Of a stretch of 64,000 nt of DNA, positions 3,443 through 43,071 are shown one piece after another (positions within the stretch are counted from its first letter, which is position 1; each line of letters begins with the position of its first letter). This DNA comes from Oceanimonas smirnovii ATCC BAA-899 (lineage in GTDB: Bacteria > Pseudomonadota > Gammaproteobacteria > Enterobacterales > Aeromonadaceae). A model generated the notes under the pieces. The model was given only the letters and a program-made list of their open reading frames with translations, ran no database searches and was not told the origin of the DNA. Both the position numbers and the translations under genes were made by a program. The DNA lies in assembly GCF_000381965.1 (NCBI RefSeq), contig NZ_KB908457.1:186001-250000 (forward strand), written 5' to 3'.

Positions 3443-3519
3443 GGCTATGTAGCTCAGTTGGTTAGAGCACATCACTCATAATGATGGGGTCGCAGGTTCG
3501 AATCCCGCCATAGCCACCA
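3443..3519 (+). tRNA. tRNA-Met (anticodon CAT), copy 1
   Basis: A 77-nt cloverleaf with acceptor GGCTATG/CATAGCC, anticodon loop CTCATAA, TTCGAATC T-loop and encoded CCA. The G1-C72 pair fits an elongator Met tRNA rather than an initiator. It is identical to the copy at 3843-3919. Confidence 0.93.
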
Positions 3520-3523
3520 TTGC

Positions 3524-3598
3524 TGGGGTATCGCCAAGCGGTAAGGCAGCGGGTTTTGATCTCGCCATTCCCAGGTTCGAATCCTGGTACCCCAGCCA
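3524..3598 (+). tRNA. tRNA-Gln (anticodon TTG), copy 1
   Basis: A 75-nt cloverleaf with acceptor TGGGGTA/TACCCCA, anticodon loop TTTTGAT (TTG) and encoded CCA. It resembles E. coli tRNA-Gln(UUG). It is one of three identical copies in this operon. Confidence 0.95.
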
Positions 3599-3687
3599 TT
3601 TTCAGAAAAGGTTGAAGAAAAATTTTCTGCTTATCTTCAGCCATTTTCAAATGTGCTGGTATATGTTAAAAATACGGGCGCAGCTGT

Positions 3688-3762
3688 TGGGGTATCGCCA
3701 AGCGGTAAGGCAGCGGGTTTTGATCTCGCCATTCCCAGGTTCGAATCCTGGTACCCCAGCCA
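3688..3762 (+). tRNA. tRNA-Gln (anticodon TTG), copy 2
   Basis: Identical to the copy at 3524-3598. The 3' flank (CATTTTCAGGAAATGTTGAAG) also resembles the flank of copy 1, suggesting a tandem duplication that included downstream spacer. Confidence 0.95.
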
Positions 3763-3842
3763 TTTTCAGGAAATGTTGAAGATACAGCACCAGATGCACT
3801 TCAGACGTTTCAGGAACATTGAGGCGACTCAATGCTTTATGT

Positions 3843-3919
3843 GGCTATGTAGCTCAGTTGGTTAGAGCACATCACTCATAATGATGGGGTCGCAGGTTCG
3901 AATCCCGCCATAGCCACCA
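3843..3919 (+). tRNA. tRNA-Met (anticodon CAT), copy 2
   Basis: Identical over 77 nt to the copy at 3443-3519, including encoded CCA. The two preceding bases (GT) are the same in both copies, while sequence further upstream differs. Confidence 0.93.
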
Positions 3920-3926
3920 CTCTTTT

Positions 3927-4011
3927 GCGGGAGTGGCGAAATTGGTAGACGCACCAGATTTAGGTTCTGGCGCCGCAAGGTGTGCGAGTTCAAGTCTCGC
4001 CTCCCGCACCA
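3927..4011 (+). tRNA. tRNA-Leu (anticodon TAG)
   Basis: An 85-nt class II tRNA with acceptor GCGGGAG/CTCCCGC, anticodon loop TTTAGGT (TAG, reading CUN codons), a long variable arm (CGCCGCAAGGTGTG region) and encoded CCA. Confidence 0.95.
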
Positions 4012-4021
4012 TTTAAAAAAT

Positions 4022-4096
4022 TGGGGTATCGCCAAGCGGTAAGGCAGCGGGTTTTGATCTCGCCATTCCCAGGTTCGAATCCTGGTACCCCAGCCA
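4022..4096 (+). tRNA. tRNA-Gln (anticodon TTG), copy 3
   Basis: Third identical 75-nt Gln tRNA with encoded CCA, the last gene of the operon. The terminator begins 7 nt later. Met, Leu and Gln tRNA clusters next to ubiF are also found in E. coli. Confidence 0.95.
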
Positions 4097-4130: not shown

Positions 4131-4140
4131 GCTTTCTGAG

Positions 4141-4241
4141 ATTAGGGATTAGGGATTAGGGATTAGGGATTAGGGATTAGGGATTAGGGATTAGGGATTA
4201 GGGAATCGTACCTGTCCCAATTCCCCATTCCCTGCTCCCCC
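4141..4241. repeat. Heptad array A1: nine perfect ATTAGGG units plus C-rich heptad arm
   Basis: ATTAGGG is repeated nine times without error at 4141-4203. After about 11 nt the strand turns C-rich in 7-nt steps (TCCCAAT, TCCCCAT, TCCCTGC, TCCCCC at 4215-4241), roughly complementary to the left arm. It fills the gap between the tRNA operon terminator and the 3' end of ubiF, a convergent junction. Nine GGG runs with 4-nt spacers also satisfy the G-quadruplex pattern on the plus strand. Confidence 0.9.
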
Positions 4242-7017: not shown

Positions 7018-7021
7018 CAGC

Positions 7022-7102
7022 AGCTTGAAGCTGGAAGCTGGAAGCTGGAAGTCAACAGCAAGTCACTCCGCTTCCAGCTTCGAGCTTATCGCTTCCAGCT
7101 TT
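7022..7102. repeat. Heptad array B1 between miaB and ybeZ
   Basis: Left arm AGCTTGA followed by three AGCTGGA units in register (7022-7049). A 20-nt unique loop follows, then a complementary right arm built from CTTCCAG-like units (7070-7102). The arms can pair over about 25 nt. The right arm ends just before the ybeZ ribosome-binding site, so the hairpin could affect expression of the downstream genes. Confidence 0.85.
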
Positions 7103-7117
7103 TGAACAGGAGTTACC

Positions 7118-11055: not shown

Positions 11056-11531
11056 AACGGATGGCGAATAAAGGTGTGGTGATTGCACTCCAGGCAGGTA
11101 GTCAGCACCTCGGGGTGAGTCACCTCGTGGCGGTGGGCGCACAGGGTGCAGTCATACAGACCCGGCCCCACCACTTCACCGGCCTGATATTCGCCGTGAT
11201 GAGCCAGGTCTTCGCGCAGCTCCTGCCATTCCAGCTGGCTTCTGTCGGTAATGTCAGCCAGCCAGCTCCATACCGTCTCACTGATGCGACGATAAAACAG
11301 GCTGTCGCGAAAGCCGCCTTTCTCTTCGCCAAAAGCGGCCAGATCCCGTTTTACATATTCAGCGATGAGCGCAAGCTCGTCTTTGGTCAGATCGCTGGCC
11401 GCTTCCATATAGGCCTGGGTTTTTTCCACCGCTTCTTTTAGCGTGGTGGTTTCAGCCATTTCCCACTGACGCTGCAGCTCTTCCACAAAGGCGTCATACC
11501 CTTTTTTCTGCTTGTCGTCTTGTTCGCTCAT
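11046..11531 (-). CDS. ybeL: Zinc-ribbon-containing protein YbeL (DUF1451)
   Basis: A 161-residue soluble protein of the DUF1451 family, of unknown function. The N-terminal two thirds is helical and charged, including W-rich [19 protein letters not shown]. The C-terminal zinc ribbon has Cys pairs YDCTLCAH and TTCLECNH. In E. coli ybeL also lies near leuS. It is transcribed divergently from leuS. Confidence 0.9.
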
Positions 11532-11645
11532 GACGTTATCCTCACAGTCAGTGCCGGGGCCGGTATTGTTGCCGGCTACCCCCTAAGGTATTCTATGCCG
11601 ATTTATCGCTGGTGTTACCACTCATTTACGGAACCGGACGTCATA

Positions 11646-14225
11646 ATGCAAGAGCAATATAACCCCCAGAATATCGAACCCCAGGTGCAACGCCATTGGG
11701 ACGAGCAGCAGACCTTCAAGGCCACCGAACAAGCCGGCAAAGACAAATTTTATTGCCTTTCGATGTTCCCCTATCCTTCAGGTCGGCTACATATGGGGCA
11801 CGTCCGTAACTACACCATAGGCGACGTTATCTCCCGCTATCAACGGTTGCAGGGCAAAAATGTGCTGCAGCCCATCGGCTGGGATGCCTTTGGTCTGCCC
11901 GCCGAAAACGCTGCCATCAACAACAAGACAGCGCCGGCCCCCTGGACCTACGAAAATATCGACTACATGAAAAACCAGCTCAAGCGACTGGGTTTTGGTT
12001 ACGACTGGAACCGTGAGCTGGCCACCTGCACGCCGGAATATTACCGCTGGGAGCAGTGGTTCTTTACCAAGCTGTATGAAAAAGGCCTGGTATATAAAAA
12101 GACCTCTTCAGTGAACTGGTGCCCCAACGACGAAACCGTGCTCGCCAACGAGCAGGTCAACGACGGCTGCTGCTGGCGCTGCGACACGCCGGTAGAGCAA
12201 AAGGAAATTCCTCAGTGGTTTATCAAGATCACCGACTACGCCGATGAGCTGCTGCGCGATATCGACGAGCTGGAAGGCTGGCCCGATCAGGTGAAAACCA
12301 TGCAGCGTAACTGGATTGGCCGCAGTGAAGGCGTGACCCTGCGCTTTGATGTGGCCGGAGCCGACGACAGCTTTGAGGTGTACACCACCCGCCCCGATAC
12401 CCTGTTTGGTGTGACCTATGTTGGCATTGCCGCCGGTCACCCGCTGGCCGCCAAAGCCGCCGAAAACAATCCGGAGCTGGCTGCCTTTATCGACGACTGC
12501 AAACATAACAAGGTGGCCGAAGCCGAGATGGCCACCATGGAGAAAAAGGGCATGGCCACCGGCCTGATGGCGGTGCACCCGCTCACCGGCAAGCAGGTGC
12601 CGGTGTGGGTGGCCAACTTTGTGCTGATGGATTACGGCTCCGGTGCTGTTATGGCCGTGCCCGCCCACGATCAGCGTGACTATGAGTTTGCCGGCAAGTA
12701 CGGCCTCGACATAGTACCGGTGATCAAGCCCGCCGACGGCAGCGAGCTGGACGTAAGCACCGAGGCCTACACCGAGAAAGGCCTGCTGTTCGGCTCCGGT
12801 GAGTTTGACGGCCTCGACTTCGCTCAGGCCTTTGACGCCATCGCCAAGACCCTGGAAGAAAAAGGCCTGGGCCGCAAGACCGTGAATTTCCGCCTGCGCG
12901 ACTGGGGCGTGAGCCGCCAGCGCTACTGGGGCGCGCCCATTCCCATGCTCAATCTGGAAGACGGCACAGTCGTGGGTGCGCCGGAAGACACACTGCCGGT
13001 GGTGCTGCCGGAAGACGTGGTGATGGACGGCATTCAGAGCCCGATCAAGGCGGATCCCGAGTGGGCCAAAACCACTTATAACGGCCAGCCGGCGCGGCGT
13101 GAAACCGACACCTTTGACACCTTTATGGAGTCGTCCTGGTACTATGCCCGCTACTGCAGCCCGAACTATGACGAAGGCATGCTGGACGTGGAAAAGGCCA
13201 ACTACTGGCTGCCGGTGGATCAGTACATCGGCGGCATTGAGCACGCCTGTATGCACCTGCTCTACGCCCGCTTCTTTCACAAGCTGCTGCGTGACACTGG
13301 TCTGGTCGAGTCCGACGAGCCGTTCAAGCGTCTGCTGTGTCAGGGCATGGTACTGGCCGACGCCTTCTACTACACCGACGACAAGGGTGCCCGCGTCTGG
13401 GTAAGCCCGCTCGACGTGACCGTGGAGCGGGACGAAAAAGGCCGCATCAAGAAAGCCACCGACGCCGACGGCCACGAGCTGGTGCACACCGGCATGACCA
13501 AGATGTCCAAGTCCAAGAACAACGGCATTGATCCCCAGGTCATGATCGACCGCTACGGTGCCGATACCGTGCGCCTGTTTATGATGTTCGCCTCTCCCGC
13601 CGACATGACCCTGGAGTGGTCCGACTCCGGGGTGGAAGGTGCCCAGCGCTTCCTCAAGCGGGTGTGGAAGCTGGTGTTTGAGCACCAGTCTCATGGCACT
13701 GCTCCGGCTCTGAACAAGGCTGCTCTTGATGGCAACCAGAAAACCCTGCGTCGGGAACTGCACAAAACCATTGCCAAGGTGAGCGACGATATCGGCCGCC
13801 GCCAGACCTTTAACACTGCCATTGCCGCCATTATGGAGCTGCTCAACCATCTGGCCAAAGTGGACATGAGCGACGAGCAGAACCGCGCCCTGCTGCAGGA
13901 AGCGCTGGAAGCCGTGGTAGTGATGCTGCACCCGATTGTGCCCCACACCTGCTTTGAGCTGTGGCGTGCCCTGGGCCATAACGACATCGATCACGCCGCC
14001 TGGCCGGTAGTGGATACCGACGCCCTGGTGGAAGACGAAAAACTGGTGGTAGTACAGGTAAACGGCAAGGTACGGGGCAAAATCACCGTGCCCGCCGATG
14101 CGGATAAAGACGCGGTAGAAGCCGCCGGCACCGCCGATGACAACGTGGCCCGCCACCTGGACGGCAAGACCATTCGCAAGGTGATCTACGTACCCGGCAA
14201 GCTGCTGAACATAGTGGCTAATTGA
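11646..14225 (+). CDS. leuS: Leucyl-tRNA synthetase
   Basis: Class Ia synthetase charging tRNA-Leu. The ATG at 11646 ([13 protein letters not shown]) is chosen because it gives 859 residues, matching E. coli LeuS at 860; the frame is open further upstream. The HIGH motif is HMGH at 49-52, the CP1 editing domain lies about 220-420, and KMSKS is at 619-623 ([10 protein letters not shown]). It heads the leuS-lptE-holA-nadD cluster, with an 18-unit heptad array between it and lptE. Confidence 0.97.
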
Positions 14226-14226
14226 T

Positions 14227-14419
14227 AGCTGGAAGCTGGAAGCTGGAAGCTGGAAGCTAGAAGCTAGAAGCTAGAAGCTAGAAGCTAGAAGCTAGAAGCT
14301 AGAAGCTAGAAGCTAGAAGCTAGAAGCTAGAAGCTAGAAGCTAGAAGCTAGAAAAAAGCATGACACAACAAGCTGGTGTGTCTGTGTTTTTCTTCAAGCT
14401 TCCGGCTTCCAGCTTCAGA
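14227..14419. repeat. Heptad array B2: 4x AGCTGGA + 14x AGCTAGA, with inverted arm
   Basis: Four AGCTGGA units (14227-14254) run in register into fourteen AGCTAGA units (14255-14352), 126 nt of perfect 7-nt period. After 39 nt a complementary right arm of four heptads follows (CTTCAAG, CTTCCGG, CTTCCAG, CTTCAGA; 14392-14419). It starts two bases after the leuS stop and ends 12 nt before the lptE Shine-Dalgarno sequence. The array contains 14 CTAG tetramers, a tetranucleotide normally scarce in gammaproteobacteria. Confidence 0.95.
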
Positions 14420-14440
14420 CTATGTTTTATAGGAGTAGTT

Positions 14441-14926
14441 ATGCTCACTCGAATCAAGGCCATTGTGCTGCTGTCGCTGACCCTGGCACTGGCCGGTTGC
14501 GGCTTTCAGCTGCGCGGCGGGGATAACCTGCCGCCTCAGCTGCAGCGGCTGGTGCTGAATGGCGATGACAAAACCCAGTTCTACCGGCTGGTGTCGGCCC
14601 GGTTGCTGCGCGCCGGTGTGGTGCTGGTAGACAACGACGGTGATACCCCTGTTCTCTCTATTACCGGTGTCGGTCAGGGCAACACCACAGCGTCGGTCAA
14701 GCCTTCCGGTGACACCCTGGAATATGCCATGCGTTTTGGCACTCGCTTTACCCTGGATATGCCCGATGAGCCCCGTCAGGTATTTAATGTTACCTTTAAC
14801 CGCAGCTTTCTCGACAAGTCGTCTCAGGCGCTGGCATCAAGCCGGGAACAACAGCAACTGCGGGAGCAGATGGAGCATGAAGCCGCAGAGCAAATTGTGC
14901 GGCAGCTGAGCCGTCTGTCATTCTGA
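14441..14926 (+). CDS. lptE: LPS-assembly lipoprotein LptE
   Basis: Outer-membrane lipoprotein that plugs the LptD barrel and delivers LPS to the outer leaflet. The ATG at 14441 follows AGGAG with good spacing and gives a lipoprotein signal peptide with lipobox LALAGC (Cys20) and the conserved GFQLRG just after it. 161 residues; the frame is open upstream but that part overlaps the repeat. The stop shares one base with the holA ATG, so the two are translationally coupled. Confidence 0.93.
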   Translation: MLTRIKAIVLLSLTLALAGCGFQLRGGDNLPPQLQRLVLNGDDKTQFYRLVSARLLRAGVVLVDNDGDTPVLSITGVGQGNTTASVKPSGDTLEYAMRFGTRFTLDMPDEPRQVFNVTFNRSFLDKSSQALASSREQQQLREQMEHEAAEQIVRQLSRLSF

Positions 14927-28069: not shown

Positions 28070-28217
28070 AGCTTTAAGCTGTAAGACAAGATGGCTTGTA
28101 CGCGCTGAAACATGAACAAAAAACTTACACTTTTTGCCGGGCTGCAGGCTTTAAACCAAGGTTCGCAGTCATGCAGAAGTAGTTTTACTTATAGCTGACA
28201 GCTTACGGCTTACAGCT
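28070..28217. repeat. Heptad array B3 between yaiI and the DUF1439 gene
   Basis: Left arm AGCTTTA, AGCTGTA (28070-28083); about 104 nt of non-repeated sequence; right arm CTTATAG, CTGACAG, CTTACGG, CTTACAG, CT (28188-28217), complementary to AGCTGTAAG-type units. The array ends 17 nt before the next start codon. The loop has no ORF I would support. Confidence 0.75.
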
Positions 28218-31919: not shown

Positions 31920-32404
31920 GCTGGCTTAAACGCTTGCTGGGCTATGCCCTGGTATTGCTGGTGGTGATGACGGCTGTAGATTTATGGCGCAGCCGCAGTC
32001 TGCCGGCTTCGGCTGACGCACTGGACGGTCTGGTCACTCTGCAGGGCAAGCCGGTGAGTCTGGCCACGCAAAGTCAGCACGAGCCGGTGCTGCTGTATGT
32101 GTGGGCCAGCTGGTGCGGCGTATGCCGGCTGGTGTCCCCCATGGTGGATCTGGTACCGGGCCGGGTGATGAGTATTGCCATTGCGTCAGGCAGCCGTGAA
32201 AAAGTACAGGCCTATATGAACGACAAGGGCTATGACTTTCCGGTGATTAACGATGAAAACAACCGGCTGGCACGTGCGCTGGGCATTGGCGTAACGCCCA
32301 CCCTGATGATAGTGCACAAGGGTGAACTGAAACTGGCCACTACCGGCTTTACCACGCTGCCGGGCATGATGCTCAGACGCTGGCTGGTTCAGTTCGGGGA
32401 CTAA
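31916..32404 (+). CDS. scsD: ScsD-like membrane-tethered thioredoxin-fold protein
   Basis: 162 residues: one N-terminal membrane helix (about 7-24), then a periplasmic thioredoxin/TlpA-like domain with WCGVC (Cys67, Cys70) and a cis-Pro loop GVTPTLMIV. Probably a reductase partner of the preceding ScsB, whose stop it overlaps (ATGA). Named by context and domain; a general TlpA-like protein is the alternative. Confidence 0.82.
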   Translation: MSWLKRLLGYALVLLVVMTAVDLWRSRSLPASADALDGLVTLQGKPVSLATQSQHEPVLLYVWASWCGVCRLVSPMVDLVPGRVMSIAIASGSREKVQAYMNDKGYDFPVINDENNRLARALGIGVTPTLMIVHKGELKLATTGFTTLPGMMLRRWLVQFGD

Positions 32405-32460
32405 GGACTGGGGGCTGGGGATTGGGGATGCTATTCCCTATTCCCCGCTCCCCATTCTCT
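32405..32460. repeat. Heptad array A2 between convergent scsD and zinc-ribbon gene
   Basis: Eight 7-nt units in perfect register: GGACTGG, GGGCTGG, GGATTGG, GGATGCT, then ATTCCCT, ATTCCCC, GCTCCCC, ATTCTCT. The first half is G-rich and the second half is its C-rich complement, so the array forms a hairpin. It begins at the scsD stop and ends 4 nt before the stop of the minus-strand gene. Confidence 0.85.
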
Positions 32461-41562: not shown

Positions 41563-41565
41563 CCC

Positions 41566-41614
41566 GGGAATGGGGAGTCGGGAATAGGGAATCCCTGCTC
41601 CCTAATCCCTATTC
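41566..41614. repeat. Heptad array A3 between convergent genes before dinB
   Basis: Seven 7-nt units in register: GGGAATG, GGGAGTC, GGGAATA, GGGAATC, CCTGCTC, CCTAATC, CCTATTC. The G-rich left arm pairs with the C-rich right arm. It lies between the stop at 41562 and the dinB stop at 41622, a convergent junction. Confidence 0.85.
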
Positions 41615-42665: not shown

Positions 42666-42672
42666 AAAACAA

Positions 42673-42840
42673 AGCTGTAAGCTTTAAGCTATCAGCTGTA
42701 AGCAGCCCGAGTGCGTTGTAGATAATGAGTCCAGCCAAGCAACACAACAAATAAAACCGTAAGCCAGAACCACAGACTGCTTCGAGCAGCTGATGGCTTC
42801 AAGCTTACGGCTTATAACTGCCTTTTAACGGCTTACAGCT
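42673..42840. repeat. Heptad array B4 between nqrM and dinB
   Basis: Left arm AGCTGTA, AGCTTTA, AGCTATC, AGCTGTA (42673-42700); about 94 nt of unique sequence; right arm GGCTTCA, AGCTTAC, GGCTTAT, two degenerate units, GGCTTAC, AGCT (42795-42840), complementary to the left. It fills nearly the whole 181-nt gap between two codirectional minus-strand genes. Confidence 0.8.
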
Positions 42841-42846
42841 GCTCTT

Positions 42847-43071
42847 TCAGATAATGCGGTTTTCTTCCAGCATTTGGCGGCGGGCTTCTTCCTTGGCCAT
42901 TTTCTTTTTGCGGTTGTCGCACGGATCCGGGCAGTCACAGGCTTTTTCAACGCCAATGCCACCCAGGCCGCCGCAGGAGCCGGAAATGGTCTTGCGCTGA
43001 ATAATATAGCCAATGGCCATGGCCGCCACCACCAGCGCAAAGACGCCAAAAGTAATCAGAAAATACAGCAT
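42847..43071 (-). CDS. nqrM: Na+-NQR maturation protein NqrM
   Basis: 74 residues: one membrane helix (about 3-24) followed by a Cys cluster (C33, C45, C47, C51) and a basic tail. NqrM (DUF539) is needed to insert the iron centre held between NqrD and NqrE. Last gene of the nqr operon, one base after apbE. Confidence 0.92.
   Translation of the reverse strand: MLYFLITFGVFALVVAAMAIGYIIQRKTISGSCGGLGGIGVEKACDCPDPCDNRKKKMAKEEARRQMLEENRII

Follow-up and report, generated by a model that had tools for sequence, protein, structure and literature searches.

A heptad array between leuS and lptE of Oceanimonas smirnovii as a possible expanded arm of an intercistronic stem-loop

REP, BIME and similar intercistronic stem-loop repeats are dispersed, longer conserved palindromes, and we know of no REP or BIME element that is built from 7-base tandem units. 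Rehm et al. (2015, PMC4692102) described the heptads GGGAATC of Xanthomonas and GGGGAYT of Nostoc as dispersed and mostly intergenic, with 2–26 units and with convergent array pairs in 70 cases among 186 arrays of one genome and in 75 cases among 183 arrays of another. In Xanthomonas, arrays at the same junctions differ in length in two closely related species, and 83% of the heptad repeats were reported to have retained their context, with changes in length and some repeats mutated or missing (PMC4692102). The role of these repeats was left to be found in that paper, which frames the Xanthomonas case around G-quadruplexes (PMC4692102). The STRR of cyanobacteria are usually 7-bp repeats, as in the hupS–hupL spacer, and transcript stability, translational coupling or termination have been suggested as their roles (PMC2670836). 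In Beggiatoaceae 169 direct-repeat sets of the single unit TAACTGA lie mostly just upstream of start codons, with one indirect repeat and little predicted structure (MacGregor 2015, PMC4679880). A literature search combining Oceanimonas with tandem repeats and intergenic DNA found no paper.

The window, as we call the whole stretch of 64,000 nucleotides from Oceanimonas smirnovii that was analyzed here, contains 18 perfect heptads at positions 14227–14352 of its plus strand, on which leuS, lptE and the arms of the elements described below are also given. Four AGCTGGA units (14227–14254) are followed by 14 AGCTAGA units (14255–14352) with one switch point, exactly as a first-pass annotation had described this tandem array of 7-base units with its 14 CTAG sites between leuS and lptE. 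It starts 1 base past the leuS stop codon (14223–14225), ends 88 bases upstream of the lptE start (14441) and has the highest tandem-array score of the 64 kb (226, the runner-up reaching 130). Exact self-matches in runs of at least 12, searched at lags 2–40 in the window, all fall at lag 7 and its multiples, except one at lag 3. With 14 CTAG in the array and 9 in the remaining 64 kb, where 37.6 are expected from a Markov model of the window with the array masked, CTAG is depleted about fourfold in the window, and across 450 kb of this genome, with such arrays masked, 74 were observed against 242 expected; the assumed rarity of this tetranucleotide is therefore real. Vsr repair was dropped as the source of the depletion, as Vsr was found in two of the 23 genomes of the genus and not in this one.

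The upstream cistron is leuS (ORF as listed 11520–14225; TIGR00396, 1258 bits), whose true start lies further in, as the family match begins only at residue 47. The downstream cistron (14441–14926) matches NF008062 with E 4.5e-25 and 88.6 bits, below the model cut-off of 235, and the name lptE is backed by its place between leuS and holA (TIGR01128, 234 bits) and by the lipobox-like N-terminus MLTRIKAIVLLSLTLALAGC, recognized by eye. Its start was set to 14441 by the ribosome-binding site and the N-terminus, the ORF list giving an upstream in-frame ATG at 14360. The identity of the LptE product to those of named relatives is 90–93% for Oceanimonas, 83% for Zobellella and 78–79% for Oceanisphaera (7 loci).

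Between the array and lptE the spacer continues with a core stem-loop (14353–14391), found in the sequence and the predicted fold, which is terminator-like by eye and ends in a T-rich tail (TGTGTTTTTC); its loop, judged by eye, exceeds the limit of 8 of the terminator scan, which made no call here or elsewhere in 13950–14500. It is followed by CTTCCAG, the heptad in reverse complement, in about 3.6 units (14392–14416), a 3' arm on which the first-pass annotation was silent, as it was on the element at 7022–7101, the array at 4140–4204 and the repeats across the genome, and by the AGGAG ribosome-binding site of lptE (14431–14435, by eye). The RNA of 14223–14460 is predicted to fold with −96.7 kcal/mol (z −4.91; one of 200 shuffles was equally low), which makes it a predicted heptad hairpin between co-directional genes of the kind known from hupS–hupL. 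In this predicted fold the first AGCTGGA units pair with the 3' arm and most AGCTAGA units pair among themselves, the expanded AGCTAGA units being without a mirror in the 3' arm. When the array length is varied in the model, the first four units take the fold from −57.8 to −96.2 kcal/mol, and each later unit adds about 2.5 kcal/mol. Rfam gave three matches, all to microRNA families and far below their gathering scores. The earlier proposal that variable copy number would alter the distance and structure before lptE found no backing as far as an effect on lptE is concerned: in the model, opening its ribosome-binding site costs 6.8–7.1 kcal/mol at every length from 0 to 26 units, a consensus scan of 13950–14500 for one promoter type showed no sigma-70-like promoter, and the array lies upstream of the lptE reading frame.

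In order to compare the junction among relatives we used one genome per species, drafts included, and assigned spacer types by eye. LptE was found in 22 of the 23 genomes of the genus (no match in G058), and 21 spacers were readable, the locus of G035 being short and without the leuS end. Six spacers are of the AGCTRGA type, eight carry a different heptad hairpin of the type GTGAGGR (G001, G006, G014, G023, G048, G044, G052 and G050) and seven are of other types; on a four-protein tree these labels are clustered, with 7 changes against 10.3 in shuffled labels (as low in 3 of 200 shuffles). The 5' arm of the AGCTRGA spacers counts 18 units in G000, 14 in G029, 5 in G046, 11 in G038, 6 in G020 and 5 in G042, so the copy number that had been supposed to be variable does differ between species at this one junction. 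In G029, G046 and G038 the sequence after the array is 91–95% identical, and the spacer of the window is 81% identical to that of G042 downstream of the array. As a 23-unit AGCTAGA array in G035 stops at the end of contig C32, draft assemblies may understate unit numbers. Folding with z below −2 was found in 18 of the 21 spacers of the genus; unusual folding was absent in G038 (−1.03), G020 (−0.98) and G056 (−0.59). Outside the genus, leuS–lptE was read in 28 of the 37 genomes of the family that gave a match. A GC-rich stem-loop was seen by eye in 21 of the 23 genomes of genus g4, and in seven genomes (G003, G011, G015, G005, G002, G022 and G039) the 18–49 bases counted from the leuS stop, with the first lptE codons included, leave too little room for a hairpin, which is thus not essential. 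Hardly any gap separates leuS from lptE in five relatives, which fits a single transcript.

Two blocks with one switch point are present in 8 of the 10 fully seen mixed AGCTGGA/AGCTAGA arrays of at least four units, the exceptions reading GAGG and AGGGA, and one GTGAGGR array (G017) has four switches. The first-pass annotation had explained the switch by a single G-to-A variant that then spread by expansion. The two-block form is what local expansion predicts, and in form this part is supported, but a single origin of AGCTAGA is unnecessary, as pure AGCTAGA arrays are found in other genera of the order (G104, G155, G169, G123 and G182, one genus; G128; G136). In all, 11 of the 148 genomes searched in the order matched, and G165 has an AGCTCGA family for which the reversed control fires as well. 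A constant GG-to-AG polarity, with old units outside and new ones on the loop side, holds in 14227–14352 and in two G029 arrays as listed and was dropped because mixed arrays elsewhere run in both directions (AAAAAAGGGG, AAAAAAAG and AGGG versus GGAAAAAAA and GGAAAA).

To see how far such repeats extend we searched for arrays of periods 4–13 with at least 16 of 18 matches at the lag, with rough gene calls from greedy ORFs. In 450 kb of the own genome 11 arrays have period 7 (6 intergenic) and 2 have other periods (none intergenic); in 400 kb of G029 there are 20 (16 intergenic) and 12 (2 intergenic), and in 400 kb of G023 six, all intergenic, and six, none intergenic. Period 7 thus accounts for 6 of 6, 16 of 18 and 6 of 6 intergenic arrays in the own genome, G029 and G023, respectively, and the arrays of the own 450 kb are dispersed and mostly intergenic with period 7 above the others. 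No array of periods 4–13 was found in 400 kb of G008, a member of the same family from genus g4, which we take to be Aeromonas. Overlapping AGCTNGA doublets number 60 in the whole own genome and 0 in the reversed control. The units are diverse (AGCTGGA, AGCTAGA, AGCCGGA, GATTAGG, GACTGGG, GTGAGGG, AAGCGTG and others) and include GGGGACT and GGGATTN, which resemble those of Xanthomonas and Nostoc. The 1.25 Mb of the own genome, G023 and G029 contain 37 heptad arrays, of which 18 are accompanied by a reverse-complement partner in convergent orientation that lies no more than 150 bp away and matches in at least 16 of 21 bases, compared with 2 divergent partners and 1 in the mirror/complement control, so that convergent inverted pairs as in Xanthomonas are present; with the threshold lowered to 15 of 21 the counts become 24, 3 and 8 and the excess shrinks. 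The array 14227–14352 itself scores 17 for the convergent partner, 9 for the divergent one and 15 for the control. All four gene-orientation contexts are represented among the 37 arrays (11, 8, 7 and 11, with the rough gene calls), and a purely 3'-end role is therefore not general. The same contexts contradict the idea that arrays always lie just past a stop codon on the purine-rich strand, and a unit rule of five purines and two pyrimidines holds for 23 of 37 arrays, yet for only about 6 of 17 distinct units (hand count; chance 0.11); both were rejected. In predicted hairpin arms the self-match at lags 7, 14 and 21 is 0.297, 0.298 and 0.342 in the own genome, 0.366, 0.380 and 0.435 in G029 and 0.266, 0.259 and 0.309 in G008, the excess being strongest in G029, clear in the own genome, weaker in G023 and absent in G008. 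When all intergenic DNA is taken together, lag 7 gives a modest signal that does not exceed those of the coding-like lags 3 and 6.

In the window a third array, GATTAGG with 9.3 units (4140–4204, tandem scan), directly follows a cluster of six tRNAs (3443–4096), and a possible degenerate C-rich partner was seen by eye before a convergent gene (4216–4241; 15 of 21, no better than the control). Weak period-7 arrays are located at 28188–28217, 32396–32445, 41565–41611 and 42672–42847, with the units CTTACAG, GGGGACT, CGGGAAT/AATCCCT and AAGCTGT, and some have an inverse neighbour by eye. At G000:C3:39079-39228 two unrelated heptads, (CGGAAGC)8 and (CAGAGTC)12, lie 10 bases apart.

A second AGCTGGA hairpin is found upstream of a phoH-like gene in a spacer at 7018–7117, between two ORFs which we take to be miaB and phoH/ybeZ. 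Its 5' arm (7022–7051) has 4.3 units of AGCTGGA and its 3' arm (7070–7101) 4.6 imperfect units of GCTTCCA, both from the tandem scan. The downstream protein is present in all 23 genomes of the genus, and all 23 spacers were read, the start of the G042 spacer being unsure, and sorted by eye into AGCTRGA (5), RGGGAYT (7), CTGTAAG-like (6 plus G058), GTRARGR (3) and none (1). On the four-protein tree (22 rows with G058 left out; G052 on a long branch) the four labels need 11 changes against a shuffled mean of 11.8, as low in 72 of 200 shuffles, and thus the spacer type does not follow descent at miaB–phoH. The sister pair G000/G026 (support 98/96) has different types at both junctions, and distant spacers of the same type are alike (G038/G048 90% over 93% of the length, G038/G035 88% over 93%, G026/G042 80% over 88%). 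Since their units are one base apart in register, mutation may turn the AGCTGGA and CTGTAAG types into each other. A firmer case of recurrence is the RGGGAYT type, with 6 changes of which at least 3 are forced by well-supported branches (the long-branch row G052 included). In 1.65 Mb sampled from four genomes other than its sources (the own genome, G023, G008 and G029), no sequence matches its ordered 38-base arm with fewer than 9 mismatches, so this recurrence does not look like repeat dispersal. The alignment of the RGGGAYT spacers shows seven invariant triplets in a 7-base register, four of GGG and three of CCC, the GGG runs being present in 7 of 7 spacers, and covariation is slight in the two aligned spacer types (double changes in 4 of 25 pairs and a covariation term of +0.45 for RGGGAYT, in 1 of 25 and a term of +0.64 for the other). 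Between species the RGGGAYT spacers are 69–91% identical, and in the 11 of 21 pairs with at least 150 readable sites, the other 10 being out of frame, they exceed the phoH fourfold sites in likeness by 0.03–0.15. We infer that whole spacers were exchanged through recombination. Bacteria are known to exchange regulatory spacers in this way.

Two further generalizations failed at this junction. Expansion restricted to the 5' arm holds in the six AGCTRGA genomes at leuS–lptE and is refuted by expanded 3' arms in G029 and G046 at miaB–phoH. The idea that each genome has a unit type of its own seemed to hold, as the heptad that is more frequent in the genome is also the leuS–lptE type in 11 of the 12 genomes that are informative (G052 and G050 had neither heptad), a count that includes the site itself and whose reversed control fires for GTGAGGR, up to 20 in G017. 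The idea is confounded by kinship and is broken at miaB–phoH by G001, which has GTGAGGA at one junction and AGCTGGA at the other.

Our preferred explanation, held with slightly more confidence than doubt, is that the 18 units form the expanded 5' arm of a heptad stem-loop between the two cistrons, one arm of which grows and shrinks. In the sequence, two inverted arms of one heptad flank the core hairpin of the leuS–lptE spacer, and whole heptads would be gained and lost in one arm, most likely by replication strand slippage, so that the long AGCTAGA block would be a by-product at the loop end of a stem for whose saturation, in the model, four units suffice. The lasting feature would then be a hairpin at the junction, as the folding energies of 18 of the 21 readable spacers suggest. 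From its position, its structure and the suggestions made for the cyanobacterial hupS–hupL repeats (PMC2670836), it may well act on the 3' end or the stability of the leuS message, with less read-through to lptE, for which the copy number itself is probably near-neutral. A contingency (phase-variation) locus, in which array copy number tunes the essential lptE, would agree with the differences in copy number between species and with the place of the array directly upstream of this gene. We consider it very improbable, since the modelled opening cost is independent of unit number, the promoter scan gave no match, the same repeats occur at many other genome sites and phase variation of the Xanthomonas heptads was likewise considered unlikely by Rehm et al., on similar grounds (PMC4692102); going by the models, array length is probably not a switch on lptE.

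The possibility that the repeats have no function at all deserves to be taken seriously, even if we tend to doubt it. Replication would favour 7-base duplications that survive in hairpin-forming spacers, the inverted arms being copied across the hairpin, and this would agree with the many unrelated 7-base units within one genome, with arrays in all gene contexts, with the unmirrored AGCTAGA units and with reports that in many prokaryotes heptads rank first among the longer repeats, for which a polymerase footprint of 7 was proposed (Mrazek 2007, cited in PMC4679880 and PMC4692102). Against it stand the junction hairpin, which stays although its sequence is replaced, and the likeness of the RGGGAYT spacers, which exceeds that of the phoH fourfold sites in 11 pairs. 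Replacement at orthologous sites, seen in the sisters G000 and G026 at both junctions, might also be due to mobile hairpin elements, MITE- or REP-like, that are inserted and excised as units, which is very improbable given that the 38-base arm is without a match under 9 mismatches in the 1.65 Mb sampled from four genomes other than its sources, and that spacers of one type resemble each other from species to species along most of their length. Least probable for the array at leuS–lptE is a G-quadruplex element as discussed for the GGGAATC heptads: the four GGG runs in 7-base register of the RGGGAYT spacers would suit it, but AGCTGGA and AGCTAGA form the same architecture without any GGG. Finally, as a tentative and rather unlikely extension, the heptads might be interchangeable parts, selection keeping a heptad-armed hairpin at each junction while the unit is free and spacers are swapped via recombination in the flanking genes. 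As the unit sequence would be free, spacers with unrelated heptads could be exchanged between species, and unit length and inverted pairing would be the common principle.

Coming back to the expanded-arm explanation and the described systems, the present repeats are like those of Xanthomonas and Nostoc in period 7, intergenic position, convergent pairs and length variation, and unlike them in that AGCTRGA has no GGG run and that the unit family is replaced at orthologous junctions. With the cyanobacterial STRR they share heptads with hairpin potential in an intercistronic spacer, in contrast to which they come from a different phylum and have different units; the account of STRR in PMC2670836, in the parts dealing with these repeats, makes no mention of unequal expansion of one arm. 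The TAACTGA repeats of Beggiatoaceae are likewise gammaproteobacterial heptamer arrays in spacers, and differ from the AGCTRGA hairpins as one direct-repeat unit near start codons with little structure (PMC4679880). As dispersed intercistronic stem-loops the present repeats also resemble REP and BIME. Heptameric intergenic repeats, their inverted pairing and length variation (Xanthomonas) and intercistronic heptad hairpins (cyanobacteria) are thus already in print, and what is added here, from sequence comparison, is a GGG-free unit in the same architecture and the replacement of the unit family at two orthologous junctions. GGG-free heptads laid out as inverted pairs in this marine group, with several families at one orthologous junction, make slippage, selection for a hairpin and quadruplex formation separable, and the leuS–lptE case is a caution that a striking repeat upstream of an essential gene is not in itself a switch. 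If the heptads are indeed interchangeable, unit length and inverted pairing, and not sequence or G-quadruplexes, would unite the heptads of Xanthomonas, of cyanobacteria and of the genomes described here.
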